NCBI GenBank assembly: GCA_011033025.1
Contig: WFMF01000142.1
Location: 124,001 to 188,000, forward strand
DNA length: 64,000 nucleotides
Reading direction: 5' to 3'
DNA from: Beroe forskalii
Lineage: Eukaryota > Ctenophora > Nuda > Beroida > Beroidae
Below are positions 14,225-49,607 of the stretch, piece after piece. Each line of letters starts with the position of its first letter. Positions within the stretch are counted from its first letter, which is position 1. A program made the translations under genes and the position numbers. The notes under the pieces were generated by a model. That model was not told where the DNA came from, ran no database searches, and was given only the letters and a program-made list of their open reading frames with translations.

Positions 14225-14437
14225 CGAGGGTATTCAGAACTGAGCAGTGAGGGTATTCAGGACTGAGGGCATTGAAGACTGAGGGTATTCAGGACTGAGG
14301 GTATTCGAGATGATCTGAGTATGAGTACCCTAACAGCCGCAATACCCTCGATCCCCTATGCCCTCGAATTTCATTCGAGGGTATTCGTGACTGAGGGAAT
14401 TCATCATCGAGGGTATTGGGGACTGAGGGTATTCAGA
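14225..14437. repeat. Short tandem repeat of GAGGGTATTCAGGACT units
   Basis: About eight degenerate copies of an 18-20 bp unit lie just downstream of the MULE transposase, with part of the array inverted (AATACCCTCG before TTCATTCGAGGGTATTC). The same motif appears singly at about 16555 inside the left arm. The array abuts the outer end of the left arm. Confidence 0.8.
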
Positions 14438-15479
14438 CCTGGAATCGCTTGAGTGCCGTGACGGGAGACCAAGTTGAAAAAAACATGAGGTAAATCACTT
14501 AGAATATTATATTCAATTCATAGGTGAATGATCATGGAGCATTAATTATGCCTAAATAAGCCTGAATGAAACTGGAATGCTATACAATGCCTTTTAAACA
14601 TGACGAAATAATTACAATCATGCCATGGTTATTGCTTGGCAACGCTGAAAACGTTTGAGGTGCCGGGAAAAGGAATGGAAATTGTGATCACAGAAACTTA
14701 TACTTCACCCTGATTCAGTCGGAAAAAAACGTTTTGATGTTTGCTTACAGAACTAGAAGTGGATTATTTTGAATATGTCGTGATATTTGTCATCACGCCA
14801 CATGGACGAGTGGTGAGACACTGCTTAGTCACATGATCTCAATTTGACGTGAATAGTGATGCACTGATCACGTAATGTGATAAATGGAGATGTGAGTAAG
14901 GGAGTGAAAATATTATGTAAAAAGCGTGTAAGCATCTGAGCAGAAATGACAGGTGACAACGATTAACTTAGTACAGATTATATTTTTATTTTGCTAGACC
15001 GTGTAGTTAAATGATTCTAACGATTTTGCTTAGCTGCAATCATGGCTCTGTGTAAAATGATGTAAGAGTTGAGCAATCAAGCATTATCATCAAGCTCTAA
15101 GGAACACATCAAAATATGATTGGATAATATTCATTAAGTAATGAACAAGTTGTGCAATCATTTGCTCATTTGCAATAGTTATGGGACATTTCCTATCTCA
15201 TCGATTAAATGGACAGGAAGCGTTTAGTGCGAAACGGATATGAGATCGTCACGACACTGTTATTGGCGGCATGAGTGGGGCATGAGACTGACGCCAAACC
15301 ATTCTAGTGACCGTGCAACAATTCAATTGGTTTGAATACTTGGGATCCACTTAAAGTGTTTAAATGTGGGAACAAGCATTCACTCCCCCTACCCTGAAAT
15401 TATCGTGTCAAAGCGCGAGAAATTTAAATAAATATGAAACAGACTCACTGTGACACATCTGAAGATCCAGGACAGATCC

Positions 15480-16118
15480 ATGAGGAAAGGTCCTGCTTTA
15501 ATATCAAGTTGTCACTCCTATTACTGTTGCTACTCCTATGACAGTCACTCCAGATCCAGTGGATTCTTTAGGAAAGCAGGTACGAGGGCCTGAAAAACAC
15601 AGAGTGATTATGATCTCGCGAGGCAGCGCATGAGCTCTTTGAAGGGGAGCTACAGAACCTTCTCTACAAATATGAAAATACACATTTGGATGTCAACAAC
15701 TGATCATTCTAAACTATGATCATGACATCAGTGGCCATAGCCTGCAATATTCGAGCGTGACTTACGCAGTCCTATTTAGCTAGCTATTTCACAGTGGTGG
15801 TCTCATTCATCATCATGATGATGACGGTGTTATCAAATACACAATGCAGTGTTATTGTGTATCCACTTCAACTTACTACCAGGACGACTTACCAGGTATT
15901 TCTGTGTGCCTAATGAGATGATGGGATTTGAAGGGCAGGGGCACGGCGGGCAGGCTGTTCCGTACGGTGAATATCGTGATCTCCGAGCTCAGGATGCATA
16001 TCTAGAGAGATACGGAGTCTTCTCGAGAAGCTTTGCTATGTCATTTCGAAGCGTGGCTCTTGTTATTCATTTCATGAGCATAATATGTCGTCATCAAGAG
16101 ATGTCGTCATCACCATAG
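15480..16118 (+). CDS. Candidate small two-exon gene, left-arm copy
   Basis: Exon 15480-15579 starts at ATG and ends in phase 1 at CAG|GTACGA; exon 15883-16118 begins after ACTACCAG in matching phase. The predicted protein is about 112 residues: a Cys/Tyr/Ser-rich start (HSYYCCYSYDSHSRSSGFF), then a block with NEMMGFEGQGHGGQAVPYGE. The same structure exists in the right arm, with one codon fewer in exon 1, so the indel keeps frame. Against it, most differences between the copies in exon 2 change the protein, and surrounding non-coding DNA is about as conserved. No family is recognised. It is convergent with the ING gene. Confidence 0.35.
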
Positions 16119-16974
16119 TGCGTTGCTGTGGAGATGTCGCCACGACATTTCTCTGAAGTCATCATATCCCATCCATCCAAGGAACTTTAACTCACTGTTT
16201 TCATAGAAGCTACCTGTGATCAGTTCAAATGAAAAAGCGACATAGTAAATTGTATAGTATTTGGAGCCTGAAATCTGTACAGTGATTGGCAGAGCCATTA
16301 TCAAGACGCAATATCACAAACTTGGGAGGGGCAGCGTAGATTTAAACAGAAAATAATGAGCTTTTAATTTGCTTATTGTGGTTTGAGTTACATGATGAAT
16401 TCTATCAATCAAACAATTCATATGCAATCCATTAAATCTTAGATAAAAGTTAAAATTGAGAACAAATTCACAATTTTACATGAAATATTGTACGGGTACA
16501 ATAATTAATAATACGCATGTTTTGACATTGCTTGAAGAAGAATCTAAAGTATCAATACCCTGCGCCCTCGAAGTCGGCAAAAGTATTTACTATTCAGTAT
16601 GCACCAATACTTCACAATGAATTCACAAAACAGGTAAATAAGTAAATATGGAAACACTTTGAAATCTTGATATATCTTCTGACAGATTGATCTATCTAGG
16701 ACCAGGTCAATCCATTTATTCCCTAACGCACACATTTAGCAACAAAAAGTCTTCTCACGTACAGCATATTCGCAAGTATTGTCTGGGAGTTCTTACTGCT
16801 TCATTCCATGCAATGAACAACTGATATCCACGAATGTCCTTTGCCTTGAAGTGCAGCACTTGATTCAGTCTTTGCATGCTGAGCTGCGATGGTCTTAGCC
16901 AATGAACTATTGAACTGTCAAGGGCTTTCAAATATTGGGGGAGTTTACATCTGATACCAATCAAACGGGACCCT

Positions 16975-18204
16975 TTACGAGCTCTTCTTCTTGTCCTGAG
17001 TGCAATTAGGGCAGAACCACTTGCCCTTTGGCTTGGCAGTGAGGTTGACGCACTTGAAGTGGAACCACTCGATGGGACAGTTGTTGTTGTCACACCCGAT
17101 CATATCCCCGTACGATACCTCGTTACACGAGCAATACCGGGGCTCCTCCGGGTCAGGTGGGTCTATTTCCAGCAAACTCGGGGAACTCTTCCGCTCCGAC
17201 CTCCTCTTGCGGGCCACGCCCTTCTTCCGCCCGAAACTACCCCTGCTATTGTTCAGGATAGCGTCTAAATCCTCGTCCTTTGTTTCTCTTGGAGGCAGGG
17301 ACTTCCTCCCCCGACCCCGGGTACTCCCGCCCATTCTCTTGGGTTTCTTAGCACTTGCCTCGTAGTCCTCGTCCAGGTCCAGGTCTTCAGGGGGCGTCAC
17401 CTCGTCCCCCGCCTCCTCCGTCGAGCAGATGGGGGAGGGCGTGTCCGTGTCCAGAGACTTCATGGCTAGACTCCTACTTTGCTCCTCGTCTAGCGAAGTA
17501 GACGACTCGTCCAGGATGGAAGAGATGGCTTGTACACTCGTGCTCTTCATCTCCTCCAGAACCAGGATCCGGTGGAGTTTCCGCTTAGCTAGTTGCAGGT
17601 CCTCACGAAGCTCGGGCTTGGAATGCACTGCGCTCTTCATGATGTTCTTGATGTTATCGATCTCCTGTGTTGTAGGGTAGCCGTGGTGTTTCCACATAAA
17701 AGACGGCGCGCACTCAGTGCGCGCCACTGAGTGCGCGCCATTCCCACCTTGGAGATTTAATGGTGGGAATGGCGCGCACTCTGTGGCGCGCACTCAGTGC
17801 GCGCCGTTTTTATCATGTGGAAACACCACGGTAGAAGTGTTAAATATATATCCAAGACATTAAAGTGTATAAATTTATCATAAATAAGTTCGTCTCATTT
17901 CTCTACTTCGGTCTTTCGGTACGCCCCCTTGCTCAGACGAATAAATTATCTGGTAGTACACAAATCCCCCCTTCTACTACACCTGGAAGTTCTTCTGGAT
18001 CTTCACATCGATCTCCATGATCTTGGAGACCTCCCGCATGACCCGGGGAGGCATGTCCTGAACTGTCTTGATGTAGTTGTTGATGTACGAAGTGATCATG
18101 TCGTTCTCATCTCCACTCTCTAGGCTGTTGTTGTTGGAGAGATCTGAGTCCGAGGAGAGGTTGGAGGAGGAACTTGAGGAGGAATCAGCGCCGATGTCAT
18201 ACAT
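16975..18204 (-). CDS. ING-family PHD-finger chromatin protein, left copy
   Basis: Two exons, 17983-18204 and 16975-17664, give 303 residues plus TAA. ING proteins bind histone H3K4me3 through a C-terminal PHD finger and recruit acetyltransferase or deacetylase complexes in the nucleus. The N-terminal ING helix region contains [20 protein letters not shown]; a serine/acidic linker and basic stretches ([15 protein letters not shown]) follow; the PHD finger has [28 protein letters not shown] and WFCPNC with all zinc ligands. Length and layout fit ING1/ING2. Compared with the right copy I counted ten synonymous changes and one replacement (Asp/Glu) over 35 codons of exon 2. The intron carries a 151-bp foldback insertion, so an apparent longer open frame into the intron is not coding. 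Confidence 0.93.
17681..17831. mobile_element. 151-bp foldback MITE in the ING intron
   Basis: Ends CCGTGGTGTTTCCACAT and its inverted copy TGTGGAAACACCACGG, with inner inverted GGCGCGCACTCAGTGCGCGCC blocks, make almost the whole element self-complementary. It is flanked by 3-bp TAG repeats, and the matching place in the right arm (near 42260) is the perfect empty site with a single TAG. It encodes nothing. Insertion happened after the arms duplicated. Confidence 0.93.
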
Positions 18205-18228
18205 TGTCTTGCTGTCTTGCTATGCTCA

Positions 18229-18927
18229 GACCTGCAAACCTGCTATAAAACTTCGAAAACCGACTTGTGTTCGGGACTTTTTAATTAATGAGAGGTTGTT
18301 TTCGAGTTTTCGAGAAATAAATTGTGATTTCTCGTTACAGATTTATATTGGAAAACCCACTATCCATGCGTCCTTGCTGCTTTGCTGATTCACCAGGGTT
18401 TACAGCTAAGACCAAACAGTCATATTCGGCGGCTAACACTTTTCAACATTTTTCAACACTTTGCTCCGCTTTTTGTACGGAAACATTAATTCGAAAACCT
18501 CCACATGTGCTATGAAAACATGAAACTTAAAAACCACAAAACATTGATAAGCACTCCTCGGTCACTACATATTTCACACCATTTTATCATCTACATTTCG
18601 TGACAATATTTTAGTGCTTTAGATTATTTTTACAGTTTTACGTTTACATTGTAACAAGCACGAATCACGTTGCACGAGGTAGATCAACAATTTAAAATCA
18701 AAACGGCTGAGTTTACATCTCGTGACGTTGTTTTCCTTAGTCGAGTGCTCATCAAATTCCAATTTTACAATAGACAGCAATAATGAATAACTATGCAATC
18801 GCGATTTAATAAAAACACTACATAATTAATTAATTAATGGATTAATTCCATAACGAATTGATTAATTAATAATCGAATTGATTAACAAAATTAACTAATT
18901 GATTCTTTAACGAATGAAAGTACTCAC
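18229..18927. other. No gene seen; between ING promoter side and TSNAXIP1
   Basis: This is presumably the upstream region of the left ING gene. It holds AT-rich repeats (TAATTAATTAATTAATG near 18826) and no readable exon. The missing 3' exons of the TSNAXIP1-like gene would be expected on this side but are not here. Confidence 0.5.
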
Positions 18928-21900
18928 TTAGACGCATCAAGTTCGTCAACCAGATCCTGTTTCTCGCGTTTCAGCTGCTCAATTTCCGCGGTTTCAACCT
19001 GTCTTAAGTCCTGCATTCGCTTGTCATTGGCCTCTGTCAACTTGTCCAACTTAGCCTGATTATGGTTTCATTTCAAGGAGTGAAATCGAATAAATAAAGG
19101 AAAATACATGCTTTCCTTGATCAATGAATCTGCAATATACATACTTACATGCCCTGTGTACACATTAGGTACATAACATGATATAAGATCCATAATATGG
19201 GATTTGAAAATTTCTTATCAAGAAAGCATTATTGGCGTCTCCAAAGAAGGTTCTTAATTTGACAGACTCTAACCTTGAGTGGATCGAGCTCCTTGAGTCT
19301 TTCCTCCTGATCCTTCAGGACAAGCTCATACTCCTGCTTGATAGAAGCTAGCAACTGCTGGTATGTCTTGAAGTCGTTAATCAGGTATTCAAATACTTCC
19401 CGATACACCTGGATATAAAAACATTTTACCTACTGGATTAAGATATTATTATCATTATTGGACTTTTAGCTCTCCGTTCACTGGAACTCTAAAAGAAGGA
19501 AACTGATCTCATGAATACTCAACACACTGTTGTATGTAATTCCGTGATTTCGTCACAGTCAATCATGAAATAAAATTTACGAACCTGAAGTCTGGTGAGA
19601 CTAGGGCCCTTTTCAGGACACCGCAGCAATCTCAGCTCATGGTGAAGGTAACTCTCTAGTTGTTCTAAATAGTGGGGTTTTCTGGGTTGTTCAGGGGCTG
19701 CCGTTATGAAAACCTGATGGAATTTTTCTTTCATAGGTATAGGTGTATAGAAATCACAATTCCAGGCACTGCCATTTGACAATAAATGGAACTCCGAGAA
19801 ATTCCTTGTCAGTATTTTGACTAATTTGCTAGAAATTTTGACAAAGCTTTAAAAAGAATTCCAGTCAATTTTGATATTTGAAATCTTTAATCAATATGAA
19901 AATCTTACATCTATGAGTTATAGGTACTTCAATCATAAAATATTTGTATCACAGCCCAATTGAAAACTCAAGTTAAGGAACTCACATTTGCATTGGGAGT
20001 AAGGTTAGCTCGAATAGCAGTGGGGGCAGTATGAGCTATGTGAGTGGCAGGCCATGTATCAATTGCAGAGTGGTTTTCCTGAAACATTAGAGAAAGGTCA
20101 ATAATAGATGAAGTATTTGTTTGAAATCTGATATTGATTAATTTTTACATGAAATGCCACTAAAGGAATTCCAATACCATTATGAAGTAACAATCGGGAA
20201 AATTGTAATTGAATTCAGAAGATTCATGATATATTTGATATTATTATTGTATATTGTTTGAGTGAAATAAAATTTTTCGTTTCCTTATAACCTTTCAAAA
20301 GACCAGAATCTATCGAAGAATTTGGATTCCATTAACTGAATGAATAGGGATATCAATTGATGAGACCCATCCTGACAAATTGGTTTCCATGCTAGTCAAA
20401 CAAAATATTCAAACAAAACAACAAATAATTCACACTTGCAACTGGTTGGAGCATGAATTCATGCTAGCATGAATTCATGATATGCAGCATGAATTCACAA
20501 TTATAACCAGTGAGTATTTGGTGCCATTTTGTCTGGCCCCATGTCATCATTTTCCCAATTTGCAGCCTCTTTTCCTATGCATTATTGTGAAATTCAGGAT
20601 TTGTATTGATGTTCATAGTACCTATTATAGATACAATTGAAATTCTGCTAATCTGTTCATGATATATAGGGGGAGTGTCACTGTCCCAATTGTCCTTGTC
20701 CCAATTTACTTTTTTTTGAGTTTGGGACTGGTTTTTGGGACAATTGGGACATGACTTGATATTACGTAAACTAAAGGATAAATTTAATATAAATGGACCC
20801 ATGCTCAGATTTATTCGTGCATATTTGAAGGACAGGAAACAGCAGGTAGTAATTGGTGGATCACTGTCGACTCAGTTACCAGTCAACTCAGGAGTACCCC
20901 AAGGTTCTATTCTAGGTCCCCTGCTATTTGTTTTATTTATTAATGACATGTTCGACTGTATAAGCCCTGAAACTAACATCGCCCTTTATGCAGATGATAC
21001 AAAAATCTGGAGAGAAATTGAGATTTCGGCTGATCATTTTGCTCTACAAGCTGACATAGATAATCTTCATAACTGGTCTGTACTAAACAAGATGAAATTT
21101 CATCCCTCGAAATGTAAAGCTTTAGCTGTAACAAACCAAAGAAACATACTCCATAATCTACCATGTACAATCTTCCAGTACAAGCTTCACAATACTTACA
21201 TAGATTATGTTGCATCTCAAGTAGATCTGGGAGTCACAGTAAACTCTAGACTTTTATGGTCAGAACAATGCAACAGTCTCTTATCTAAAGCAAGCTCCCG
21301 TCTAGGACTTGTAACACGTATTTGTCATTTCACCTGTGATAAAAGACAAAAAAGAACATTTTACCTTACACTAGTTAGGTCTTTATTTGAGCATTGCTCT
21401 ATCATTTGGCATCCAGTCAGCTCCAACCAGCTCAGTGGTTTTGAGGCCATCCAAAAGCGGGCCATTAAGTGGATTGAAGGCCGTCCCCATGACCATATCT
21501 GTGATACTGAATACTATAATAAACTGAAAACCCTGCATATCCCTCCAATAAAACACAAATTTATCATAACTGACCTAATCATGATGTTCAAAATCATACA
21601 CTCTCTTATCTCCATCACCTTACCAGAAGGCTTTCATATCATTAAACATACTGAAGTAAGGAGCACCAGAAGTACACATGATATTGTGAGCAAAGAGGAT
21701 TGTTCAAGATTAAAATGTACCATAAGGCCCAACTGTGATAATTTTAGGAATTCATTTTTCTATAGAACAATGGTCATATGGAACAAAATCCCTTATAGTA
21801 TTAGGCAAGTTAAAAGCATCTCCACCTTTAAATCACAACTCAAAACTTTCCTTTGGAAAGCAGATCTAGACTGGCCCGATTAATTCAATTTACTCAGTCC

Positions 21901-23127
21901 GTGAACTAGATGGTCATTACGTTGTAAGGCAAGAACAAAATACCCTTATTTAAGAAATTATTAATAAATTTGTATTTTTCGAAATGATGGTCTTGATGCA
22001 GAAAAGTAATTTCTTTGTGGCCTAGGACTTTAAGTGTGACAATTTAAATACCAATCTATGATTACAATTGACAACCATATTATTTGTGAGTTTGTGATTT
22101 AATTTTATCAGATGACATAATTATTTATTATTATTTATTCTATACCCTATTTATTGATTGATGTTTTTGACGGGCCTCCCTGTAATAATGGTTAACGCTG
22201 TGTTGGGAGTTTAGCCCAGATTTTGCACTTGATTTATATTTTCTGTGCTATTTTGGTTAAGTAGGAATGACAGAATATTTTAACCTGAATGACATTGTAA
22301 AATATATTTCATGTAAAATTTGAATTTTGAAATAAAAAAAATTTGGGACAATTGGGACAAACAAAAAGTTGAAAAAATCAGCCATTTATCATTTTTGACA
22401 TTGATCTAAGTTTTTCTATCATTGAAGTATTGAAATGAAAGTTATATTCCTACTACTGAAATTTAAATTGAAAGTAGAACATATTTTGGTTGTGTTTGTT
22501 TGCGAAACAAAATCATTTGAGCCCCAGTTGTCTCTGTCACTTTTGTCCCAATTGTCCCAAATGTCCCATTTGTCCCAAATGTCCCAATTGTCCCAGTCTG
22601 CATCCACTTTTTTGAATCCCATTTGGTCCATTTTCTCTGTCCCAATTGTCCCATTTGTCCCAAATGTCCCAATTGTCCCAGTCTGCATTCACTTCTTTGA
22701 GTCCCATTTCTTCCATTTTCTCTGTCCCATTTGTCCCAAATGTCCCATTTGTCCCAAATGTCCCATTTGTCCCAATTGTCCCTGTCCCAATTCACTTTTT
22801 CTTGAGTTTGGGACAATTGGGACAGTGACACCCCCTGTATAAACATAAACATCATAAATTCACACACCATAAATTCACACATCATACACATCATCGCACT
22901 AATGAATTCATGCTTGCTACCCAGTTCATCAAGCACTCATTCCAGAAAACCAACTCATCAGGACAGATAATGTACTATTGGTCATCGATAATTCTAATGA
23001 GTAATGTAGTGTGGGTATTATAGAAACCTTAAAAACATTTGGAGGAGGAAGCATGTGTGGTCTGTCCTTTAACATGTATGCTGGGTTAGTAAGAGACCGG
23101 AATGGTGAAATGGCTGGCAGTGGTTCC
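18928..23127 (-). CDS. TSNAXIP1: Translin-associated factor X-interacting protein 1-like, partial
   Basis: Five minus-strand exons: 23028-23127, 19986-20078, 19585-19713, 19274-19408 and 18928-19055. The family is a sperm/cilium-associated coiled-coil protein binding translin-associated factor X. Matching stretches of the N-terminal domain are PHYLEQLESYLHHELRLL, TRLQ|VYREVFEYLINDFKTY and IKQEYELVL...EERLKELDPLK, followed by coiled coil (KLDKLTEANDKRMQDL). Joins between exons keep frame. The gene has no start or stop in view; family members continue well past this coiled coil, yet the last exon ends with a donor only 700 bp before the ING arm. Either the remaining exons lie beyond the ING gene or the duplication cut the gene. 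The 23028-19986 intron holds a nested transposon and LINE. Confidence 0.82.
20751..22341 (+). mobile_element. 5'-truncated LINE with open reverse-transcriptase frame
   Basis: A frame open from the insertion point to TAA at 21881-21883 encodes the C-terminal part of a non-LTR reverse transcriptase, including GVPQGSILGPLLFVLFINDM and the catalytic YADD in IALYADDTKIW, then a thumb/C-terminal region (DLGVTV, LVRSLFEHCSIIWHP) typical of the CR1/Jockey group. A 3' UTR ends in an A-rich tail (AATAAAAAAAA). The 17-bp target duplication TTTGGGACAATTGGGAC lies at 20734-20750 and 22342-22358. The apparent first codons before 20751 belong to the target, not the element. An intact frame and perfect duplication mean a recent insertion. 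Confidence 0.92.
22510..22830. repeat. GTCCCAAATGTCCCATTT minisatellite
   Basis: 9-bp half-units (TGTCCCAAT, TGTCCCAAA, TGTCCCATT) are repeated tens of times, with a larger repeat marked by CAGTCTGCATCCACTTT at 22591 and 22680. It is the body of the TIR element at 20667-22837. Open frames through it are artefacts of the 9-bp period. Confidence 0.93.
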
Positions 23128-24862
23128 CTGAAATTTTACCTTTTATGAAAACCATAGAAAATTCTGAGGATTGAATTCAAATAATTAATTTAAGCCTTAA
23201 TGTAAGTATTCAAACTTATTCAAATTAATAACCAGCATGCAAAAAATGCTTAAGTAATGTGGTAGGTACCTAGGTAAATTTGAATAAACAAAATCACTTA
23301 CAGTTTTTCCTGCATTCTGTTTACAGTACCCATTAACGACTTTTCCCCTAGACAGGGAAGTTGTACAATAATCATATGAAGGACAAAATCAGGAAATGAA
23401 GTCCCAAAAGATGAAGATAAAATCATGTGTACCCTCATTAGGTAACTTACATTATTGCTTTGATAATAATCATAATAATATAAGTAGTACATAGGTGGGT
23501 TTTGTAGAAATAAACTGAAAATGTTTACAGCAAAAGATGCAGTTAATCAATAGTGACATGCCTAATGGATACATTGGCATGTTGAATAATCTATGCTTGA
23601 TGCATTTAAATTGTGCTAGCTTTGTCAGATGACAAAACTTTCATCTGACCATGGTAGCAACTGAAAAACCAGTCAACTTGAAACAATCAGTATATGGAGT
23701 ATCCCTGATCCTCATTGCATGAACTGTAAATTTCAAGTAAATCGGTGTTTCAGTTCCTGGCACAGGTAATTTCAAAGTTTTGAGTCATGTGACCAAGCCG
23801 GCACATTCCAGAGTGTTGATTTTGATAATAAATCCATTTCCATGTTTCTCACTGTCCAATACATCAAATGTTTTAAAAATTCAACAATTTTTAAAACATT
23901 GTTTTTATGTGACAGTTGACTTGATCTTTTGATCTAGTTTGACCAGATGGAGCTATGAATTCCCTACACTGGACAAAGACTAATGATGAACTTAAATGCC
24001 TAAATGAACTTGAAGCTTATGAACCTAACACACCATCTAGTGGTTGGGGGAGCGTTGGGCGCCCGTCAAATGCATTCAACCCCACAACACGGTCGCAAGT
24101 CCGTGTGCCACAGTGTTAGCTTTCATTACACCATATCATTTTTGGTGTCTCATTAAGATATTTTGTTTGGATCTACCTAGATCTCTGATGAAGGTATCTC
24201 ACTTGGATCCTGTCAAAGACTAAGGAAAGAGCTGTTGGAAAGTTTTGTGGCTTGACTGTACAAAGATGACTGTATTTGTATCCCAAAGATAAACACTCAT
24301 GCTTTAGAGAATAAGATTTAAGAACTGAGATCAGGATAAGTATTTATTTTGAAAAAGGTATTGCAATTGATTTGGGTTGGTGGATATGAGTGATGAGCTA
24401 TTCTAGAAGTGCCCAGAAAGATTGCACATATTGATAAATTGACTGACATTCTTCAGTTCCCCTGCCACTGTATCCCCAATAACTCAATAAGGGGTTACAT
24501 TTCATATGTACCTACAGACACACCATTGCAGCCTTGAACTTCAAATATAACTTCAAATATAAAAATTTAGAATGAAAACTGGCCAAAGTCTTAAATTAAG
24601 AATTCTTGACTGGATAAGGAGTTGTCTGCACAGGATGTTGCATGCACCTGTAATGAACCAATGCATTCCAGACCGACTAATGGCAGAGTAACGAGAGTCA
24701 ACATATGGAATCAATATATGGAAATAGAATAATAATAATGATAATAATAAATAATATAGGGGTTTTACAATAATGTAACACAAATGGCTCTGCAAATATT
24801 AAAAAATAACAAACTTCATCATTCAATTCCACACATTATAGCCAAGGTATCCTAATAACAGA

Positions 24863-25023
24863 GGCGTGTCGAACTCATATATGCACGGCCTTTCCATGCA
24901 ATGCGCGGCGTAATCGTGCGCGGCTCACTGCCTGTTAATTACAAGCAGTCAACAGTCAAGCAGTGAGCCGCGCACGATAACGCCGCTCATGGAAAAGCCG
25001 CGCACATATGAGTTCGACACGCC
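24863..25023. mobile_element. Foldback MITE, about 160 bp
   Basis: Left arm GGCGTGTCGAACTCATAT onward and right arm ending ATGAGTTCGACACGCC are inverted copies over about 70 bp, including inner CGTGCGCGGCTCACTGC and its complement. The loop is about 25 bp. No coding. No clear target duplication was seen. Confidence 0.88.
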
Positions 25024-25327
25024 ACCGTTAGATGAGGAAGAAGTTTGAGCGCGCGCGCGCCGCGCAACGCAAGTCGCAAACAGGGATATTTGTGTCTAGC
25101 AAGTAAAAATGTTTTAAGCGGCACGAGGCCCGCACGTCTGTCGTCTGGTTACTTGGTTAGGGGAATTGTTTTTTAATTCAACTTGACGACCCGGACGATC
25201 ATGCGATGTTTGTCCCTAATTCTTCTGACTTGTTGTTAAACAAAGCATGAGCAAAGGCGTAATAATGTCACAATGACCAATGACGCGACGTACAAATGTA
25301 GAACGTTGCTACGCGCGCGTTCGGTAT

Positions 25328-25571
25328 GTCTCCCAGGCCATATAAACGGCTCTGAGTGACGTCACAGATCTAAACGTCAATTTTTCTGTATCCTAAACCT
25401 AACCATTGCCCTAACCAAAACCCTAACCTTAATCCTAACCCTGAACCTTACAAATCCTGACGCTAACCAAAACCCTAACCTTAATGCTTAAAGCGCTAGA
25501 TGCGCTTAATTATATTTGTCTGAGTGACGTTATTGTCATAGATAATGAAGGCTCCCGTTTACATGGGAGAC
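25328..25571. mobile_element. Small TIR element filled with telomere-like repeats
   Basis: Ends GTCTCCCAGGCCATATAAACGG and the inverted form CCGTTTACATGGGAGAC enclose two GAGTGACGT motifs and a block of degenerate CCTAACC/CCCTAAC repeats (about 25393-25485). The imperfect units and flanking inverted ends argue for a mobile element rather than a former telomere. Confidence 0.65.
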
Positions 25572-25887
25572 GCACCGCGCGTTCCCTTAACCAGGGGTGT
25601 CGATAGCGATTGCCACAAATTTGATTGTAGCACTGAAAATGTTCTGACTAGGACTGTGCACAACATGAATCAGTTTCGGACCGAAAGTGGTGCGGGCAAA
25701 TTTTGGGGCAGCCATTAATGATATTGGGTTCACGATATGACATGTAAATGTGTATACGCAATGAAAGGCTTTAATTTATTGAATCAGACATTGGCTTCCA
25801 CGCCTTGAGACGGGCATCGTATTGTAGCAATGAAAAATAACAACAATAAAATATTTTAATGTGTATGTAGCATGAAAAAAGTGTATT

Positions 25888-26235
25888 GGGCCATGATAGC
25901 TCAGAGATGCATAATCGTGGACATGGTGGGTTCAAGTCCTGCTCCTGGCGACCTGGCAATGGCCCTTTGATTTTCGGATTGCTGTGACACTTGCACTATG
26001 TGCCTAACTGAGCATTACCACAGAAAGGCCCTACCACTCAAAAACATTACTATCTGATACTAACCACAACTGCCAGACAAACATTTGGACTGAAGTCTTA
26101 AGTGTAGGTATCTAATGACCCCTTTGGGATACCTCTACTCTCATTTAAGACTTGGAAGGTTTTCTATATATTTGCTTTGCTGTTTTCCTCACCTAGCTTA
26201 TTCTCATTATAGGCACTGATGATGATGATGTGTGA
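25888..26235 (+). mobile_element. tRNA-derived SINE
   Basis: The head has an A-box-like TGATAGCTCAGAG and a B-box GGTTCAAGTCC spaced as in a tRNA, but the stems do not close as a real tRNA. An unrelated body follows and ends in a (GAT)n-type tail, GATGATGATGATG. RNA polymerase III would be the expected promoter user. Confidence 0.65.
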
Positions 26236-35513: not shown

Positions 35514-37123
35514 TGATTTAAGTTTAAAGATTTTAGTTGAATAATTATGTTCGTCGTGAAATTCTTATTATTGCCGATATTATGGAATTCTTGTCATTGT
35601 CAGTTTAGTACAGTTTGTTTAATGAATTATGTTGGAATCGAAAATGTTTTCACTTTTCCTTCTTGCTAACAGTTTTAAAATAAAATCAGTTAAAACAGTG
35701 AAATAACATTATTAAGATCAAAACGGTATCACAAAATAATTTAAGGCCTGGGAATTCAGTATCGCAGAAATTATGATCAACGAGTGCTTTTGTATAACTG
35801 CAGGTTGTTTTGTAGTTTTCTACATTTAAAAAAATCATATTAGTTTAACTATACACTGTACAATGCACATCAGGTATATCAGTCGTTAAAAGTTTACCTA
35901 AAGTACAAATTGATAAGTTACACATCTTATCAGAGTAGCATATGTAGTCATAGAAATATAATTAGAAACCTATCAGAGTATCATGTTATCATGTTATCAT
36001 CGTGAACTTACTTCTGGCGGCAATCTGGGGTTCACTGTACATCGGTAATAAATACTATCAGGTGGAATAGTTAAAGTTAAAGGGGAACATGGGAAATTCT
36101 CGCTTTTGGTGCAAATTTTTAGAACCCTTGCTTTGGCACCTGACCACGCTGACTTACGGCTAAAAATACATCCCGTTGACTGTTTCAAATGCAGAACAAG
36201 GTCTGTCATAATAGTTTAATCAGTCAATCCAATTCGTGGACGATATATCCAGTACACCACTTTACATCATGGCATTGATTCTTGTTGTTACCAGTTCTTA
36301 CTGAAATGACACCTCGCTGACACCAATTCTGTCTGACACCACTCCTCTCTGACACCAGTTCTTACTGACACCACTTCTCACTGGCACCAGTTCTTACTGA
36401 CATGACTCCTCGCTGACACCAGTTCTTACTGATACCACTTTTACAACTAGGATACCTGGCATTGTATCTTGTTTTACCAGTTCAGTTCTTTCTGACACCA
36501 CTCCTCGCTAACACCAGTTCTTACTAACACCACTTCATGCTGACACCACTTCATGCTGACACCAGTTCTTATTGCAACTATTCATGAATATTTTGATTAT
36601 TTCTCTCTGACACCAGTTTTGCAGACAACACTTCTCGCCGCATCAGACATGTTTGTGTCGCATATTATGTGTCGCTATTTTTTGCTGACACCAGATTTAA
36701 ATGACATCCGGTCTCAAGAACCATCCGATATCAAGAACCATATTAAGAACCACGGATATCAGCTCACGTTGACACTATTTTGTGTTTATCCAGTGACTCC
36801 GGTTTTGCTGACACCATTTCACGCTAAATTAACGCTACTATAATAAAGTAGCATCGTTTTCCGCCTATAGAAGTATGGATGTAGATAAGTAGATAATTTA
36901 GATCAGCTCAGAATCTCTTGAAATCTCATCCCACTTGTCCTGTGTTTTCCTTGTCACTTAGTCAGCAGTCCTGTTTTGCGTTGTCTGTACTTTGTAAATT
37001 GTAATTGTATCAACTGTTATATGATAACCAATCATTTTGGAATCTAGTGTATAAAGCAGCATTGATTTCCAGTTCATTACTATGAAAATGTTTTTTCAAG
37101 CCGCTAAATTCAAACCATTTCAG
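35514..37123. repeat. Intergenic region with a 17-bp CTGACACCA minisatellite (about 36300-36820)
   Basis: Degenerate CTGACACCAGTTCTTA and CTGACACCACTTCTC units, with larger breaks, occupy about 500 bp; the first part (35514-36290) shows nothing. An upstream exon for the gene starting at 37124 is expected here but is not recognised; an ATG at 37082 is in open sequence directly before the acceptor. Confidence 0.75.
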
Positions 37124-39347: not shown

Positions 39348-40197
39348 GTATCAGCCGTATACACCGTCCTGGGAGCAGAAACTACTCCGTTGAATTGTCA
39401 CGAGGGTCTGTCAACGACCGACAAACCACTCCGAAAGTGAATGGTGGTGTTGGTTCAATAGATAAATGCAATGAATTACATCGCTAATTCCCGTCAGTCA
39501 ATAATCCATTATCATTCTCCGTCATCGCTTCATTAATCCCATTTCATGTTTGTTTAAACACCAGTTTAAAGTTTCAAATTATAAATTGATTAATTTCTTT
39601 TATAATAATAAAACAGTTCAACCGTAAAAACGCTACCGTTACGATATTTGTTTTGTTGATTTGATAATTCAGTAGGAATGTACCATAGAACTTTATATTG
39701 ACGCTATTTGACTCCTTTAATTTCACGTTGAACAATAAAATCAGTTATTGTTACTAAATAAAATTAAAACGTTTAATAAAAATGTAAAATGATTGATTAG
39801 TGCTGAATATTTGAATTGAGTTCTTAATATCATTTAATGCTAGATACCTGATATTTTTTTCATTTATTTATAATCAATCACGTTATCAATTAGTGAAATT
39901 AAACGGACTGTTCACCGTTGAATCATAATTAAATAATTATATCATTTTAACTGATATATGTTTAGCAAACAGATTTTTATAGTTACAGTTGAGTGTATTT
40001 TAAACACTTATATAATTTTAATTTGGGTTTAATTACTGAATTTTACTCTGCTTAAATTTTTCAAACCCATAATTCGACTTCAATGTTGGATTCTGTTGCT
40101 CAAACATTTGGATTTTTCAAAAAAAGATTTGCTGTTATAGCAATACTTATCTCCTATTTCTAACCATTATCCCATTCCAAAGCTAAGTTTACTCGCA
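39348..40197. other. AT-rich intergenic stretch, no gene seen
   Basis: Strongly AT-rich sequence between the low-complexity gene and CZIB, with no open frame or repeat. It probably includes the 3' end of the former and the promoter of the latter. Confidence 0.5.
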
Positions 40198-41414
40198 ATG
40201 TTTGTGGAACTCCAGCTCAAAGCTTCCCTGGTGAATATTGAGAGCTTTTCAGCCGAGGGCGAGGACTTCAAATGGCAACTCAAGATCAAGTTTCAGAATA
40301 GATACAACCTTCTTAATAAAATGCATTCTATAGGAGGTTTCCAAAGTCTAGGGCCTGAAAATTTGACTGTCGAGGAATATCCCGGTTAATTAATTTCAAA
40401 AATCAAATTCTGATAAACGCCCCCTAACAGAGCCTCCCCAGATCAAGTGCTCAAGTTGCGGAGAGGAGCCGGATCACCTGATCCACGTGTCTCAGGATGA
40501 GTCCTCTGAGATCAAGGGAGGGAGGGGCTCTGCTAACCTCGTGGTTAAGTGCAAAATGTGCGGCAGGGAGAACTCGATGAGTATCGTAGGTTTGTAAATC
40601 CTAGCAGCTTAGTTGGGGTATTGACTTGAAGTTTGAACGTTAACTTAAATAAAATCAGCGATTATGAAATTTATTCATAATCGCTGATTCCCGCGTAAAT
40701 TAAGTTAAAACCAGATTTTCCCCAGTTTTACAGGGGAAATCAATTTTCAGCCTTTCTTCGATTTTCCAATCGCCTTTCTGTCCTCAGAAGGAAGTGTGAA
40801 GCCGTACAGTAACAGCAGTGTCCAGTTCGCTAGTGTGGTGAGGTTTGAGTGTAGAGGAGTTGAACCAGTGGACTTCCAGCCCCACGGAGGTATAACTTAT
40901 TGTCTTGGGCTTGGCTTTGCGATCCTTTCTAAGTTATTACTGTCTCTAATCAATGTGCATCATTTCCATGATCAATTGATCGCACAATTTTAATCGGGCT
41001 GTTTTCACAGTTTGGACAGCCACTGCAGCGGACAGTGGTGTAGTGTTCAGTGACGTAGAGCTGGCTGACAAGGAGTGGTGTGAATACGACGAGAAAGAGG
41101 TACGTGCAGGGTTAGGTACAAGGCCAATCCTGCTTTCTGAGGTCAACTTTCATAGAATTAGAGATTTTCAATTGATCTAGTAAAATAGTAAGTTGAAACG
41201 GTGAGACTCCTCAGTAAAATAGGCCCATTGAAGCAACTGATTAGAAATTTTAGAAAAGATTTGGTGTTGAATACTTGCGAGTCGGGGGGCGCACGGCGAA
41301 GGGAGTCTGACAAATGTTTATTGGATGATTGCGCTCACAATTATGTTAATATTTCAGAACAGAGAAGTCGGTATATACGAACTGGAAAGCAAGTTCATTG
41401 CTTGCAAGAAATAG
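40198..41414 (+). CDS. CZIB: CXXC-motif zinc-binding protein (DUF866)
   Basis: Exons 40198-40336, 40431-40589, 40788-40889, 41011-41099 and 41358-41414 (TAG). The product matches the small conserved eukaryotic CZIB/C1orf123 family along its length: a start like the family's (LQLKASLVNI), two zinc-binding CxxC pairs (KCSSCGEE and KCKMCGRENS), KGGRGSANLVV, RFECRGVEPVDFQPHG, EWCEYDEKE and the ending VGIYELESKFIACKK. The function of the family is poorly known. The border between exons 1 and 2 is uncertain: the in-phase join at 40336 keeps about 20 residues not typical of the family. It lies 460 bp upstream of the right ING gene, same strand. Confidence 0.92.
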
Positions 41415-41874
41415 ATAAACATTCTACTAGGACATTGCATGCAGATTTTAATTGTTATAGTTTTATAGTGTTGATATGAATTTAACCACTTTTTGATGCT
41501 ATGAAAAGATTTATATTAAATCTTCGTTCACAATTTTTCATAAGTTTTGAACAGTTCTAGTTGATAAATGATATTTATGGCCAAGGTTTACTTTTATGTT
41601 TGACTATTATTTATTTGGTTAATATGTTATGATATATTTTTGATAGAATTCACATGGATCGATCAATATTCATATTTCACGTTAAAACTTATTAATTAAT
41701 TGTGTCCCAATTTATTTAATTGAGCTATCATGAATCGGCACTAGCAATGTCATTACCTTTAAAACTTATTATTAGGTTCATTTATTTCTGATTCTTAATC
41801 TTGTATGTCACCAATTTACAATGTATGACATCTAACCCAATCCCCCTTATAGCACATAGCAAGACAGCAAGACA

Positions 41875-42961
41875 ATGTATGACATCGGCGCTGATTCCTC
41901 CTCAAGTTCCTCCTCCAACCTCTCCTCTGACTCCGATCTTTCCAACAACAACAGCCTGGAGAGTGGGGATGAGAACGACATGATCACTTCCTACATCAAC
42001 AACTACATCAAGACAGTTCAGGACATGCCTCCCCGGGTTATGCGGGAGGTTTCCAAGATCATGGAGATCGATGTGAAGATCCAGAAGAACTTCCAGGTGG
42101 GGCTTTGTGTTCTATCAGGGGGGCTTTGTGTTCTATCAGGTAATTTAGTGGTCTGAGCTGAGCGGCCAAGGGGGCGTACGGAAGTAGAGAAATGAGACGA
42201 ACTTATTCATGATAAATAGATACACTAAAATGTCTTGGATTAAGATTTAACACTTCTACCCTACAACCCAGGAGATCGATAACATCAAGAACATCATGAA
42301 GAGCGCGGTGCACTCCAAGCCGGAGCTTCGTGAGGACCTGCAACTGGCTAAGCGTAAACTCCACCGGATCCTGGTCCTGGAGGAGATGAAGAGCACGAGT
42401 GTGCAGGCCATCTCATCCATCTTGGAGGAGTCGTCCACCTCGTTAGACGAGGAGCAGAGTAGGAGTCTTGCCATGAAGTCCCTAGACACGGACACGCCCT
42501 CCCCCATCTGCTCCACGGAGGAGGCGGGGGACGAGGTGACGCCCCCCGAGGACCTGGATCTGGACGAGGACTACGAGGCAAGTGCTAAGAAACCCAAGAG
42601 AATGGGCGGTAGTACCCGGGGTCGGGGCAGGAAGTCGCTGCCTCCTCGGGAGACGAAGGACGAGGATATAGACGCTATTCTCAACAACAGCAGGGGAAGT
42701 TTCGGGCGGAAGAAGGGCGTGGCCCGCAAGAGGAGGTCGGAGCGGAAGAGTTCCCCGAGTTTGCTGGAAATAGACCCACCTGACCCGGAGGAGCCCCGGT
42801 ATTGCTCGTGTAACGAGGTTTCGTACGGAGATATGATAGGGTGTGACAACAACAACTGTCCGATCGAGTGGTTCCACTTCAAGTGTGTCAACCTCACTGC
42901 CAAGCCAAAGGGCAAGTGGTTCTGCCCTAATTGCACTCAGGACAAGAAGAAGAGTTCGTAA
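41875..42961 (+). CDS. ING-family PHD-finger chromatin protein, right copy
   Basis: Exons 41875-42096 and 42272-42961 give 303 residues, the same size as the left copy, with both exons of identical length (222 and 690 nt). Predicted proteins differ at two residues (Asp/Glu in the linker after SSIL, and Leu/Ile before DAILNN). The PHD zinc ligands and the aromatic/acidic histone-binding positions are unchanged. Over the PHD exon I counted five synonymous and no replacement differences. The intron carries a 20-bp tandem duplication (GGGCTTTGTGTTCTATCAGG twice) right at the donor side. Because the duplication ends just before the ATG, its upstream region is unrelated to that of the left copy, so expression may differ. 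Confidence 0.93.
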
Positions 42962-44886
42962 AGGATCCCGTATTAGGTATTTCAGAATATTATGTTAACA
43001 CCCCGTTATTTGAAAGTCCTTGGCAGCTGACTGTCTAGTGTCTATTGACTGATATCTGATTATCTGATTTCTCGGGTCGGGTCGTTGAAGCTAAGACTAT
43101 CGCCCCAGCTTCCAGCATGCAAAGACTGAATCAAGTGCTGCACTTCAAGGCAAAGAAAATGCAGATATGCAGGTGTTCATTAGTTCATTGCATGGAATGA
43201 AGGAGGAAGAACTCCCAGACAATATGTGTGATTATGCTGTACATGAGAAGATTTCTTGTTGCTAAATGTGCGGGACGTGGGTTAGGGAATGAATGGATTG
43301 ATCTGCTCTTAGATCAATCTATCAGAAGATTTATCACGATTTCATCCAAAGTCTTATCTATAAAGTGTTTCATATTTACCTGTTTTTGTGAATACATTGC
43401 ATATCGCATGCTAATAGAACTGAATAGTAAATATTTATGCCGGATTCGAGGGCACATGGTATTGATATTTCTTCTTCAAGCAATTTCAAAACATGCGTAT
43501 TATTAATTATTGTACCCGTACAATATTTCATGTAAAATTGTGAATTTGTTCTTAATTTTAACTTTTATCTAAGATTTAATGGATAGCATATGAATTGTTT
43601 GATTGATAGAATTCATCATGTAACTCAAACCACAATAAGCAAATTAAAAGCTCATTATTTTCTGTTTAAATGTACGCTGCCCCTCCCATGTTTGTATTGT
43701 GATATTGCGTCTTGATAATGCCAATCACTGTACATATTCCAGGCTCCAAATACTACAATTTGCTATATCGCTCTATCTACTCGAGTAGCAGCGTGTAGTT
43801 GTGTATGCACTTCATTGCCCAGATTTTTTGACGGTTGCACGTTGTTCTCCAGGCAATTCTGGTCCAGAATCACCTTGGTACCACTTTTGTATCGCTAGAC
43901 ACATGTCTGTAGGGCCACGCCCATGCCACGCCCTTAAGCGCGTATGGGGAAATTCATATCTCAGCTTCAGAAGGTCGTAGAGACTCCGTTTTGGGCTCAA
44001 ACGAAGCGCAATGACCACGTTTTTATGCAATTTTTAGTACGAATAGGCCTAAAAATGCCCAGGAAAAAAGTTATGGACCAAAAACTTGTTTTTCAGTGTA
44101 TTGCAAGGAAGTTACAGATGTTTATTTTGTATCTTGGTCTAGGAAGGTCCTAGAGACTTCGTTGTGGGCTCAAAAGAATCGCAATGACCATGTTTTTATG
44201 CAATTTTGAGTGTGAATATGCGTCAAAATGCCCAGGAAAAAAGTTATGGACCAAAACCGGGTTTTTCAACTTGTATCGCAAGCAAATTACACATGTTTAT
44301 ATTCATATCTCAGCCTAAGAAGATCACAGAGATTCCATTTTGGGCTATAAAACGGAGCACAATGGCCATGTTTATGTTTGACTTTCAATAAACATAAGGC
44401 CAAAAATGAACTTAAAAAATGTTATGAAGTTATGAGCCAAAATCCGATATTTGGGCACCTGCAAGACACTGTAGAGGGCATTTTGCATCTTGACCCTGGG
44501 AAGGTCGTACTTTAGAGACTTATAAGTCAGCTCAAAACCGCAATGGCCATGTTTATAGTTAATCTTATATTAGGGACTTGAAATAAAAAGTATAGCCCAA
44601 AGTGCACAAAAACTAGGTCTTGGGACATAAGCAACTCATATGCATTGGGGTTTTTGCCCAAAAAGGTGTACTGTACTGCACAACCCACATGTGTACAATT
44701 CTCTTTTGCTTGAAAATATATTCACTTTATGGAGACAATTGAATTCTATTATGTCTTGTATGAAAACCATATTTAGTCATAAATTCATGGTTGTGGGCAA
44801 GAAGAGGACGGTCAAAGGGTGAGGAGTCAAGGATGATCAGCCGAACAGGACATCCCCGACCAGCTTCTTTACACTTTCAGAAGGGC

Positions 44887-45551
44887 CTAAGGGAGGTGCT
44901 GCAACAGTGGAACAAGATGAGGAGGGGAAGGAGGAAGAAAGTGCGACATTTGACCCCCCCCGACATTACATCCCCCGACATCCGACCCCCCGTAATTACT
45001 AAAATGTGATAGACAGGATTTGGATATGTAGTTGTGAGCAATTCCAGTCAGGAAGGTGTCAGCAGAAGGTCTGAGTAGTTCCGGAGGAGGTTCTGGATCC
45101 TGTCGTTCCTCCTTCTCCAGGACAGATGACTTGAACACGTCTTCTCCGGTAACACGGAACACCTTGGCTCTGGAGAGGTTCTGCTGCGTCTGGAGTGTCT
45201 TGAGGAGGGTCCAGATGGAGAGGTGGTGGCAGGACAGCAGGGAGTTGAAGGAGTGGTGAAAGGACTCCAGTTCGTTGGTTGTGCGGGCAGATCCAGCCAA
45301 AGCTCTGTTCTGCATGTGGAGAGGGAAGATCGGGAGAAGTCCAGCTGGAAGTCCGATCCAGGTCCTCTCGAAGTAGGCCAGAAGTGGGAGCTCATCTGCC
45401 AGGAAGGTGATGGAGAGGGACTCGAAGATAGCCACAACATTCGCAACAGGAACTGCTGGTACTCCCTCATCAGGCCATGCTCCTTAACCTGGACACCCAG
45501 CCGCTTGCACGAGTGGAAGAAGCAACCTTCTGCTCCAATCCCAGGAAACAC
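44887..45551 (-). pseudogene. Partial MULE-like transposase (C-terminal part)
   Basis: Two overlapping minus-strand frames, 45551-45048 and 45435-44887, together carry the end of a MULE/FLYWCH-type transposase: GCFFHSCKRL (CxxH-type motif), YFERTWIGLP, and ARTTNELESFHHSFNSLL (the NN/E-x-H helix of the core). The frames overlap near 45350-45435, where a frameshift separates them. The N-terminal and first catalytic parts are absent, so this copy cannot make an enzyme and the element is non-autonomous. Confidence 0.7.
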
Positions 45552-45845
45552 TTCCAGAACAGCTCAGTTGCTGGTGCGACACATGAACCCCGTTCCCAAG
45601 CACAGTTGCATGGGAGGTTACTGTGCCTATAGAGGGGATGTGTTGTCGGGGGTCAAATGTCGCACTTAGATACCTTGGTCAAGCCGCGGATCAGTGCGTT
45701 TGATCTATGTTTATTCATCGGGGGATGTAATATCGGGGGTCAAATGTCGCAGCAATCGTCTAACTGCGACGTTTGACCCCCCGCTTTCCTCTATAGATTT
45801 ACAGTACTGAAGTCGGGGGATGTAATGTCGGGGGGTCAAGTGTCC
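44936..45845. repeat. Inverted and direct GACATTTGACCCCCCG repeats around the transposase fragment
   Basis: AGTGCGACATTTGACCCCCC near 44938 is inverted as GGGGGTCAAATGTCGCACTT at about 45650-45669, bounding a nested unit. Further copies lie near 45727, 45767 (inverted) and 45813, two of them with GGGGGATGTAATGTCGG. These look like the terminal repeats of a second element and its solo or duplicated ends. Confidence 0.7.
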
Positions 45846-47685
45846 CTTTACCAGGAGGAAAAGGGAGAAGTCTCCTAGTATGTTATCTGTCTGAAAGGAC
45901 CCAGTGAGGTGCTGGAATGTTGTTTGTAGAGTATAGATGTTGAAAATAGTGAACTTTGCTTCCGAGAACCATTTGACATGCTACTGTGTGGGACCAATGT
46001 TAGAGACGCAATACTGCAGTTTGGCGAGTCATACCAATCACCATTATCACTCCCCGAAGGTGGTGTGTGATGTTGTGTGGGACCAATATGATATAAAATT
46101 TGACAGGGGACAACGAAATATGACCTGCTACTGTAATCACTGATAAGGCATGCTTGTATGTTCCAGCACCTCCCTCAGACGTAGATCCTGTTCAAAATCC
46201 TCCTTCCCATCCCTCCAACTCCTTCTGCTGATCTATATGTCTCCTATACTCCTGTAAAAAGCTTTCCGGGGATGTTCTGCTTGGCTGACACTCCATGACC
46301 CCTCCCCCCTGTGGTCCCCTTCTTGCCCAAAGCCATGAATTTTTTGTACTGTACTTACTATGTGCATTCATGACAAACATTTTTGAGCAAATTGCCAATT
46401 ATATATGAGTTGCTTAGGCCAAGAACCAAGTTTTGGCTAACCTATAACTTGGGCATTTTACGCTCCATTTTTATTTCAAGTTTAATATACTCTACTATAA
46501 AAGTATAAATATGGCCAGGGGTGTAGCCAGATTTATAAAAAGGGGGCGCCGAGTTACCTTCAAAACCTGCATTGCGGGTCTTTCAAATAGCTGACTTATA
46601 AGTCTCTAAGTACAACCTTCCTGGGCAAAGATACAAAAATGCCCTCCGGCCTCCACAGTGTCTTACAGTTGCCCGAAGATCGGTTTTTGGCTCATAACCT
46701 TTTTCTGAGCATTTTAGGCCTTATCTTTATTACCTAGTCGAATATGAACATAGCCATTGCAATTCTTTTGAGTCCAAAAAATGAGTCCCTACGATCTTCC
46801 TTGGCAGATATATGAATATAAACAATAAACATGTGTAATTTGTTTGCGATACCAGTTGAAAACTAGTTTTTGCTCCGTAACATTTTTTCTGGGCATTTTG
46901 AGGCAAAGTCGCACTAAAAATTGCATGAAAATGTAGCCATTGCGATTCGTTTGAGCCCAAAATGGAATCTCTGTGATCTTCTTAGGCTGAGATATGAATA
47001 TAAACATATGTTGCCTTTGCGATACGAGTTGAAAAACCAGGTTTTGGTCCATAACTTTTTTCCTGGGCATTTTGACGCATATTCACACTCAAAATTGCAT
47101 AGAAACATGGTCATTACGATTCTTTCGAGCCCAAAACGAAGTCTCTAGGACCTTTCTAGACCAAAATACAAAATAAACATCTGTAACTTCCTTGCGATAC
47201 ACTGAAAAACCAGTTTTTGGTCCATAACTTTTTTCCTGGGCATTTTTAGGGCTATTCGCACTAAAAATTGCATAAAAATGTGGTCATTGCGCTTCGTTTG
47301 AGTCCAAAACGGAGTCTCTACGACCTTCTGAAGCTGAGATTTGAATTTCCCCATACGCGCTTAAGGGCGTGGCATGGGCGTGGCCCTACAGACACGTGTC
47401 TAGCGATACAAAAGTGGTACCAAGGTGATTCTGGACCAGAATTGCCTGGAGAACAACGTGCAACCGTCAAAAAATCTGGGCAATGAAGTGCATACACAAC
47501 TACACGCTGCTACTAGAGTAATCATTATGATTTTAACTGATTCCAGGTAGCTTCTATGAAAACAATGAGTTTAAATTCCCTGAATGAGTGGGATCTGGTG
47601 ACATCAGAAAAATGTCGGGATGACATCTCCACAGCAACGCACTATGGTGATGACGACATCCCCATGGCAACTCATCTTGATGACG

Positions 47686-48287
47686 TCATAACATACTCAT
47701 AATATGAACAACAACTGCCACGCTTGGAAATGACATAGCAAAGCTTCTCTTGAAGACTCCGTATTTCCCTAGATATGCATCCTGAGCTTGGAGATCACGA
47801 TATTCACCGTACGGAACAGCCTGCCCGCCGTGCCCCTGGCCTTCAAATCCCATCATCTCATTAGGCACACAGGAATACCCGGTAAGTTGTCCTGGTAGTA
47901 AGTTGAAGTGGATACACAATATCACTGCACTGTGTATTTGATAACGCCGTCATCATGATGATGAATGAGACCACCACTGTGAAATAGCTAGCTAAATAGG
48001 ACTGCGTAAGTCACACTCGAATATTGTAGGCTATGGCCACTGATGTCATGATCATAGTTTAGAATGATCAGTTGTTGACATCCAAATGTGTATTTTCATA
48101 TTTGTAGAGAATGTTCTGTAACTCCCTTCAAAGAGCTCATGCGCTGCCTCGCGAGATCATAATCACTCTGTGTTTTTCAGGCCCTCGTACCTGCTTTCCT
48201 AAAGAATCCACTGGATCTGGAGTGACTGTCATAGGAGTAGCAACAGTAATAGGAGTGACAACTTGATAAAGCAGGACCTTTCCTCAT
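47686..48287 (-). CDS. Candidate small two-exon gene, right-arm copy
   Basis: Exon 48191-48287 (ATG at 48287) and exon 47686-47891 mirror the left-arm candidate, with one Ile codon absent from exon 1 and a stop giving a protein of about 100 residues. The block NEMMGFEGQGHGGQAVPYGE is identical to the left copy, while the flanking residues differ at about ten places. It sits beyond the inserted transposon, convergent with ING. I cannot tell a young gene from conserved non-coding sequence here. Confidence 0.33.
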
Positions 48288-49607
48288 GGATCTGTCCTGG
48301 ATCTTCAGATGTGTCACAGTGAGTCTGTTTCATATTTATTTACATTTCTCGCGCTTTGACACGATAATTTCAGGGTAGGGGGAGTGAATGCTTGTTCCCA
48401 CATTTAAACACTTTAAGTGGATTCCAAGTATTCAACCCAATTGAATTGTTGCACGGTCAATGGAATGGTTTGGCGTCAGTCTCATGCCCCACTCATGCCG
48501 CCAATAACAGTGTCGTGACGATCTCATATCCGTTTCGCACTAAACGCTTCCTGTCCATTTAATCGATGAGATATGAAATGTCCCATAACTATTGCAAATG
48601 AGCAAATGGTTGCACAATGCACAACTTGTTCATTACTCAATGAATATTATCCAATCATATTTTGATGTGTTCCTGGGAGCTTGATGATAATGCTTGATTG
48701 CTCAACTCTTACATCATTTTACAAGTCACAGAGCCATGATTGCTGCTAAGCAGAATCGGAGCCGTTAGAATCATTTAACTACACAGTCTAGCAAAATAAA
48801 GTTATAATCTGTACTAAGTTAATCGTTGTCACCTGTCATTTCTGCTCAGTTGCTTACATGCTTTTTTATAATATATTCACTCCCCTACTCCAAGCACCAT
48901 TTATCACATTACATGATCAGTGTTTGTGCATCACTATTCACGTCACATTGAGATAATGTGACTTAGCAGTGTCTCACCACACATCTATGTGGCATGATTA
49001 CTGATATTACGACACATTCAAAATAACCCACTTCTAGTTCTGTAAGCAAACATCAAAACGTTTTTTTTCCGACTGAATCAGGGTGAAGTATAAGTTTCAG
49101 GGATCACAATTTCCGCTCCTTTTCCCGGCACCTCAAACGTTTTCAGCGTTGCCAAGCAATAATCATGGCATGATTGCAATTGTTTCGTCATGTTTAAAAG
49201 GCATTGTATAGCATTCCAGTTTCATTCAGGCTTATTTAGGCATAATTAATGCTCCATGATCATTCCCCTATGAATTGAATATAATATTCTAAGTGTTTTG
49301 CCTCTTTTTTTCAACTTGGTCTCCCGTCACGTCACTCAAGCTGCTGCCTACTGAGGAACAAAAATTCCGCGTCTCCATGAAACGTGAATTAAATATCACT
49401 CGCTTGGAAGGATATTGCCTTTTCTATAGGAATCCTTTTTATTGTGCCATTCATCAATTCTGCAGTGCGCGTATAACTTTGAAAGTATGAACACTCTGTG
49501 ACAAGCAGCTCGTAAATTGAAATTTGATTGAATGAGGTGAGGATCGTTGTTGGTACGTTGAATGGTTTTTGAGTGGCTCAAGGTTTGATTAAACTTACAG
49601 TATGAGA

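Follow-up and report, generated by a model that had tools for sequence, protein, structure and literature searches.

The 64-kb window analyzed here (the whole stretch of DNA presented) contains a dispersed inverted segmental duplication, fairly old and an ordinary kind of event, the structure of which was read from one assembly. Each of its two arms carries one open two-exon gene of the ING family that codes for 303 amino acids, and the two genes are oriented outward relative to the spacer that separates them. The two proteins have remained nearly identical, and the non-coding DNA of the arms has diverged at two distinct levels.

Structure of the inverted duplication

The features that define the locus are as follows.
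14447 to 18224, minus strand: arm A, with the ING sense on the minus strand
18225 to 41854, unstranded: spacer of 23.6 kb, with a TSNAXIP1-like gene, a reverse transcriptase open reading frame (ORF), two EXD2-like genes, an unrecognised gene, and CZIB
41818 to 41832, plus strand: 15-bp word immediately beyond the inner end of arm B, which repeats part of the start region (41872 to 41886)
41855 to 49341, plus strand: arm B, which includes a 3.74-kb element
17681 to 17831, unstranded: self-complementary, MITE-like element of 151 bp, bordered by TAG at each end, which lies within the copy A intron and is absent from arm B
43778 to 47520, unstranded: multicopy element of 3.74 kb with terminal inverted repeats of ~600 bp (94%), in arm B only

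The arms are inverted copies with 93.2% identity over 3,578 aligned, ungapped sites, and the largest gaps in their end-to-end alignment correspond to 3,752 columns absent in arm A and 154 absent in arm B. Self-BLAST of the window returned three collinear inverted pairs with E-values from 0 to 1e-146, namely, (i) 14447-16230 with 49341-47530 (92.2%), (ii) 16236-17680 with 43772-42256 (85.2%, gaps counted), and (iii) 17830-18224 with 42260-41855 (87.0%). The inverted arms that an earlier note had described from the sequence were thus recovered, at coordinates that proved correct to about 10 bases. In an 84-kb stretch, made up of the window with 10 kb added at either end, further self-matches that reached 500 bp and 78% identity came only from minisatellites and from the inverted termini of the element in arm B. 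The spacer block is unrepeated within the window. The outer arm segment 14447-16230 was found at two places in the 216-Mb assembly, which are the two arms; this segment therefore does not belong to a dispersed repeat, nor did the search reveal an allelic contig of its own. The locus accordingly comprises two copies of more than 1 kb that do not form part of a dispersed repeat, with high identity and in opposite orientation, as an inverted segmental duplication does.

The description of the locus as palindrome-like was too strong, given arms of ~3.8 kb that are 93% identical and a 23.6-kb spacer six times their length. The palindromes of mammalian Y chromosomes have arms of tens of kilobases to more than 1 Mb, which are more than 99% identical and separated by short spacers. 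Like them, the present locus has inverted arms that bear gene copies and may undergo conversion, but it differs in arm length (3.8 kb), spacer length (23.6 kb), and identity (93.2%).

At the inner end, the homology stops 20 bp upstream of the ATG, and the upstream DNA therefore differs between the two ING copies. The 15-bp word of the start region occurs twice at arm B and once at arm A. The extra word could be a trace left by the duplication event, in which case copy B would be the derived one; we take this as a weak hint.

Each arm has received a different insertion, as had been noted earlier. The MITE-like element of arm A was scored at 40 places in the genome (from 102 first-look candidates), and its best other copy is identical over 152 bases. 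It begins 16 nucleotides from exon 2 of ING copy A and may therefore contain the intron's branch point. The 3.74-kb element of arm B has at least 223 matches in the assembly, of which the long ones show 90 to 98% identity. With the words and offsets tried, no target-site duplication was found for this element, and neither of the two internal ORFs that were examined for a transposase family scored above a Pfam cut-off. Because each element is absent from the other arm, both insertions would postdate the duplication.

The spacer genes named earlier were largely backed by Pfam and PDB matches. TSNAXIP1 matched PF15739 (1.1e-14), CZIB matched PF05907 (1.2e-15), and the two exonuclease genes, whose exon translations were joined by hand, had EXD2 as their best PDB match (2.9e-15 and 7.1e-17); their joined exonuclease exons are 44% identical to each other. 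The segment 31962-32921, which we take to be the C-terminal part of the first EXD2-like gene, matched no Pfam family at E-values up to 0.1, and its best hit in the PDB, ribosomal L17 (0.031), fell short of significance. For the fifth gene, at ~37.1 to 39.3 kb, the three ORFs tried gave no Pfam match. The spacer also holds a reverse transcriptase ORF at 20720-21880 (RVT_1, 3.3e-14), which was missing from the earlier list.

Several other repeats were observed. To the left of arm A, at 8155-10520, lies a minisatellite with a 16-bp unit (CCGGAGAATGGGCCCT) in ~121 copies, and further 16-bp arrays are found in the window at 2632-2959, 14248-14434, and 36313-36570. One 48-bp minisatellite unit is present in two arrays 2.4 kb apart (51418-51826 and 54261-54622). 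On the same contig as the window (C184), the last 135 kb (278-413 kb) yielded self-match pieces of at least 1 kb and 80% identity, 528 of them inverted and 697 direct, and about half of this region (67,016 bases) was covered by repeated blocks of 1 to 6 kb in both orientations; as a biased control, this repeat-rich region shows only that blocks repeated in two orientations are common there. On the mitochondrial contig (C1134, 13,339 bp), ~50 residues of one reading frame are present twice (L006, ~4311 and 7546), the first 10 kb is 56% T, and COX1 is very divergent, with four in-frame TGA codons. The composition of this contig and its COX1 may point to a ctenophore (related papers cover the mitochondrial DNA of Beroe forskalii, PMC6991124, and the genome of Beroe ovata, PMC11184263).

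Selection on the two ING copies

The exon borders of both copies were read from the sequence, with GT and AG in both introns, and are predictions made without RNA.
17983 to 18204, minus strand: exon 1 of ING copy A, predicted splice sites, codes for 74 amino acids
16975 to 17664, minus strand: exon 2 of ING copy A, predicted splice sites, with the PHD finger
41875 to 42096, plus strand: exon 1 of ING copy B, 74 of 74 amino acids identical to copy A
42272 to 42961, plus strand: exon 2 of ING copy B, two amino acid differences from copy A

The Pfam and PDB scans were made with the arm A protein, from which the arm B translation differs at 2 of 303 residues. The arm A protein matched the Pfam family ING, PF12998, with 26.2 bits (cut-off 23.9), and its PHD finger matched ING4 (5.1e-28), ING2 (1e-26), ING5 (3.8e-26), and ING1 (5.8e-26) in the PDB; the general Pfam PHD model scored 23.1 bits, slightly under its cut-off of 24. 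The protein has the architecture of the family, with the ING domain at the N-terminus and the PHD finger at the C-terminus. These matches, together with the near identity of the arm B translation, uphold the earlier assignment of an ING gene to each arm. Proteins of the ING family bind histone H3 trimethylated at lysine 4. The pair was absent from the matches of a six-frame search of the genome with PF12998, presumably because the intron splits the domain.

The other ING genes of this genome, on contigs C553 and C1053, are distant from the pair. C553 holds an ING gene with both domains in one open frame (L038, ~4718-5470) and, 25 kb off, a truncated copy (L039, ~4785-5039), the first 65 residues of which are identical. 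The gene on C1053 we would call ING3-like, a name that reflects our own judgment of its sequence. In this gene (L040, C1053:6001-16000, ~6850-7330), the 5' part of the PHD exon (QVSYGDMVGCDNPN) has been multiplied by a 46-bp tandem repeat, and at least seven extra copies precede the full PHD exon. A full-text search of a set of open-licence papers returned none on an ING duplication in ctenophores.

A number of observations bear on selection in the pair. (i) The two proteins are identical at 301 of 303 residues, the differences being D126E and L207I. (ii) Of the 912 coding positions, 49 differ between the copies, distributed as 4, 0, and 45 over codon positions 1, 2, and 3; 47 of these changes are silent and 2 are replacements. 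(iii) dN amounts to 0.0028 and dS to 0.29 (NG86) or 0.41 (YN00), and 32 of 120 fourfold-degenerate sites differ. (iv) Silent sites number 194 and replacement sites 715, and on these figures the probability of 2 replacements among 49 changes is 2e-29 without selection. (v) Had one copy been free for one-tenth of the silent divergence, ~17 replacements would be expected, against the 2 seen (P ~5e-6). Since 49 DNA differences have led to only 2 amino acid changes, strong purifying selection must have acted on each copy after the two separated. This constraint has held for both almost since the duplication and includes the serine-rich N-terminus and the basic linker. Judged by their sequences, the ING copies are real paralogues, neither a mirror nor two alleles, and both look functional. 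The simplest reason for such selection would be dosage, that is, two doses of the same reader of a histone mark being useful. The possibility that the duplicate is a retrocopy was rejected, as the intron and ~2.5 kb of downstream DNA were copied as well.

Two levels of divergence in the non-coding DNA

A two-state hidden Markov model fitted to the 2,666 aligned non-coding sites gave rates of 2.8% and 14.9% (2 delta lnL, 95); in 12 permutations, run with fewer fitting rounds, 2 delta lnL was at most 3.25. The tracts, in arm A coordinates, are as follows.
14447 to 14762, unstranded: low tract, 3.5% over 313 sites, counterpart 49028-49341
14936-14763: high segment, 13.3% over 173 sites
14937 to 16002, unstranded: low tract, 2.5% over 1,059 sites, counterpart 47772-48848, holds the longest identical run
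16265-16003: high segment, 13.4% over 261 sites
16266 to 16539, unstranded: low tract, 2.6% over 268 sites, counterpart 43472-43744
18224-16540 without the exons: high segment, 15.7% over 592 sites

The longest identical non-coding run covers 221 sites, a length reached in none of 5,000 permutations (mean longest run, 76). Two fairly constant levels of divergence are the pattern expected from partial gene conversion after a duplication. The element of arm B is located in a high segment flanked by two low tracts, which is expected, in a post hoc reading, if conversion stops at a large insertion. The exchange between arms proposed in the earlier note thus gained support from the two levels of non-coding divergence, although it is unproven.

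The low tracts might instead be shared functional non-coding DNA (an enhancer, elements of a 3' untranslated region, or a non-coding RNA) kept alike by selection in the absence of conversion, which we regard as possible but doubtful. In its favor, one low tract (14447-14762) extends to the very edge of the homology, where conversion should be inefficient; low and high tracts alternate over a few hundred bases, as conserved elements do; and the strong selection on both genes makes shared control DNA plausible. Against it, the three low tracts lie near one level (2.5 to 3.5%) and the three high segments at another (13.3 to 15.7%), and neither the single block folded nor the Rfam search gave a signal. 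Indels show no special depletion in the low tracts, which also speaks against constraint, but the comparison (indels to substitutions, 10:45 in low versus 20:151 in high tracts) is non-significant (Fisher P, 0.25) and does not tell the two readings apart. On balance, we favor conversion as the source of the low tracts, with modest confidence. Divergence at the fourfold-degenerate sites exceeds even that of the high non-coding tracts, an excess that neither reading accounts for on its own and that indicates that rates are uneven for other reasons too. Within the coding region, no conversion tract was significant (fourfold differences 26 of 85 versus 6 of 35; P, 0.17).

Other identities for the outer arm were considered and rejected. 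As a protein-coding gene, its best ORF had one of six differences at the third codon position in the part checked (15906-16040), and an informal modulo-3 count of differences in 200-base steps showed no steady phase. As a structured RNA, one 225-base block folded on both strands gave z values of -0.13 and +0.21, and the only Rfam match in 14440-16980 at E-values up to 1 was a bacterial family (E, 0.35), far under its gathering score. As a transposon, it would be represented by only the two copies found in the assembly search.

Recombination between the arms could also invert the 23.6-kb block, so that both orientations would be segregating. The inverted arms, in which stretches of identity reach 221 sites, are a possible substrate for this, but they are short, 93% identical, and broken by a 3.7-kb insertion, and we consider such inversion improbable. 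An assembly artefact, in which two haplotypes or a chimeric contig were joined in inverted orientation, is very improbable as judged from the assembly alone, since 32 of 120 fourfold sites differ, far above ordinary allelic differences, each arm carries its own insertion of a dispersed element, the spacer block has no second copy in the window, and dS of 0.29 to 0.41 bears out the earlier view of genuine arms as opposed to a mirror made by the assembly.

History of the pair and comparison with known systems

The account that we consider fairly probable for this one genome is an inverted ING duplication followed by selection, separate insertions, and partial conversion downstream. A single copying event placed an inverted duplicate of a ~3.7-kb segment ~24 kb from the original on one chromosome; the segment holds the two-exon ING gene and reaches from 20 bp before its start codon to ~2.5 kb beyond the stop. 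The reading frames were kept intact, selection purging nearly all amino acid changes in both copies (47 silent and 2 replacement changes), and different mobile elements entered each arm, probably after the duplication. Gene conversion between the arms may then have partly re-homogenised the downstream DNA, producing alternating tracts of 3% and 15% divergence.

Related cases are known. In Caenorhabditis, paralogous gene pairs with inverted repeats have arms more conserved than their surroundings, which the authors interpret as active maintenance (Zhao et al. 2007, PMC1803023). The pairs described there resemble the present one in being inverted paralogues on one chromosome with a repeat part far more alike than the rest. 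They are, however, divergent neighbors whose intergenic DNA is the inverted repeat, whereas here a spacer of 23.6 kb with five genes lies between the copies, the more-alike part is downstream of the genes, and a single species was analyzed. In Drosophila, according to a review, ectopic conversion between duplicates falls with distance (PMC3924832). The duplicates it describes are likewise linked and under purifying selection, with conversion tracts proposed for uneven divergence; its methods draw on several species or population samples, whereas here conversion is deduced from tract structure in one genome.

A more far-reaching reading, which we put forward only tentatively, is that the ING copies form a selected dosage pair with ~1.6 kb of low-divergence downstream DNA as a shared control region. 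If true, selection on this region would exceed that on silent positions in the coding DNA, or the region would be repeatedly copied from arm to arm. The downstream DNA would then evolve in concert and the coding DNA would drift silently. The informative detail is that selection kept the ING proteins near-identical and that any homogenisation of DNA hit beside the gene; the pair may thus allow selection at the protein level and homogenisation at the DNA level to be separated on one duplicate.
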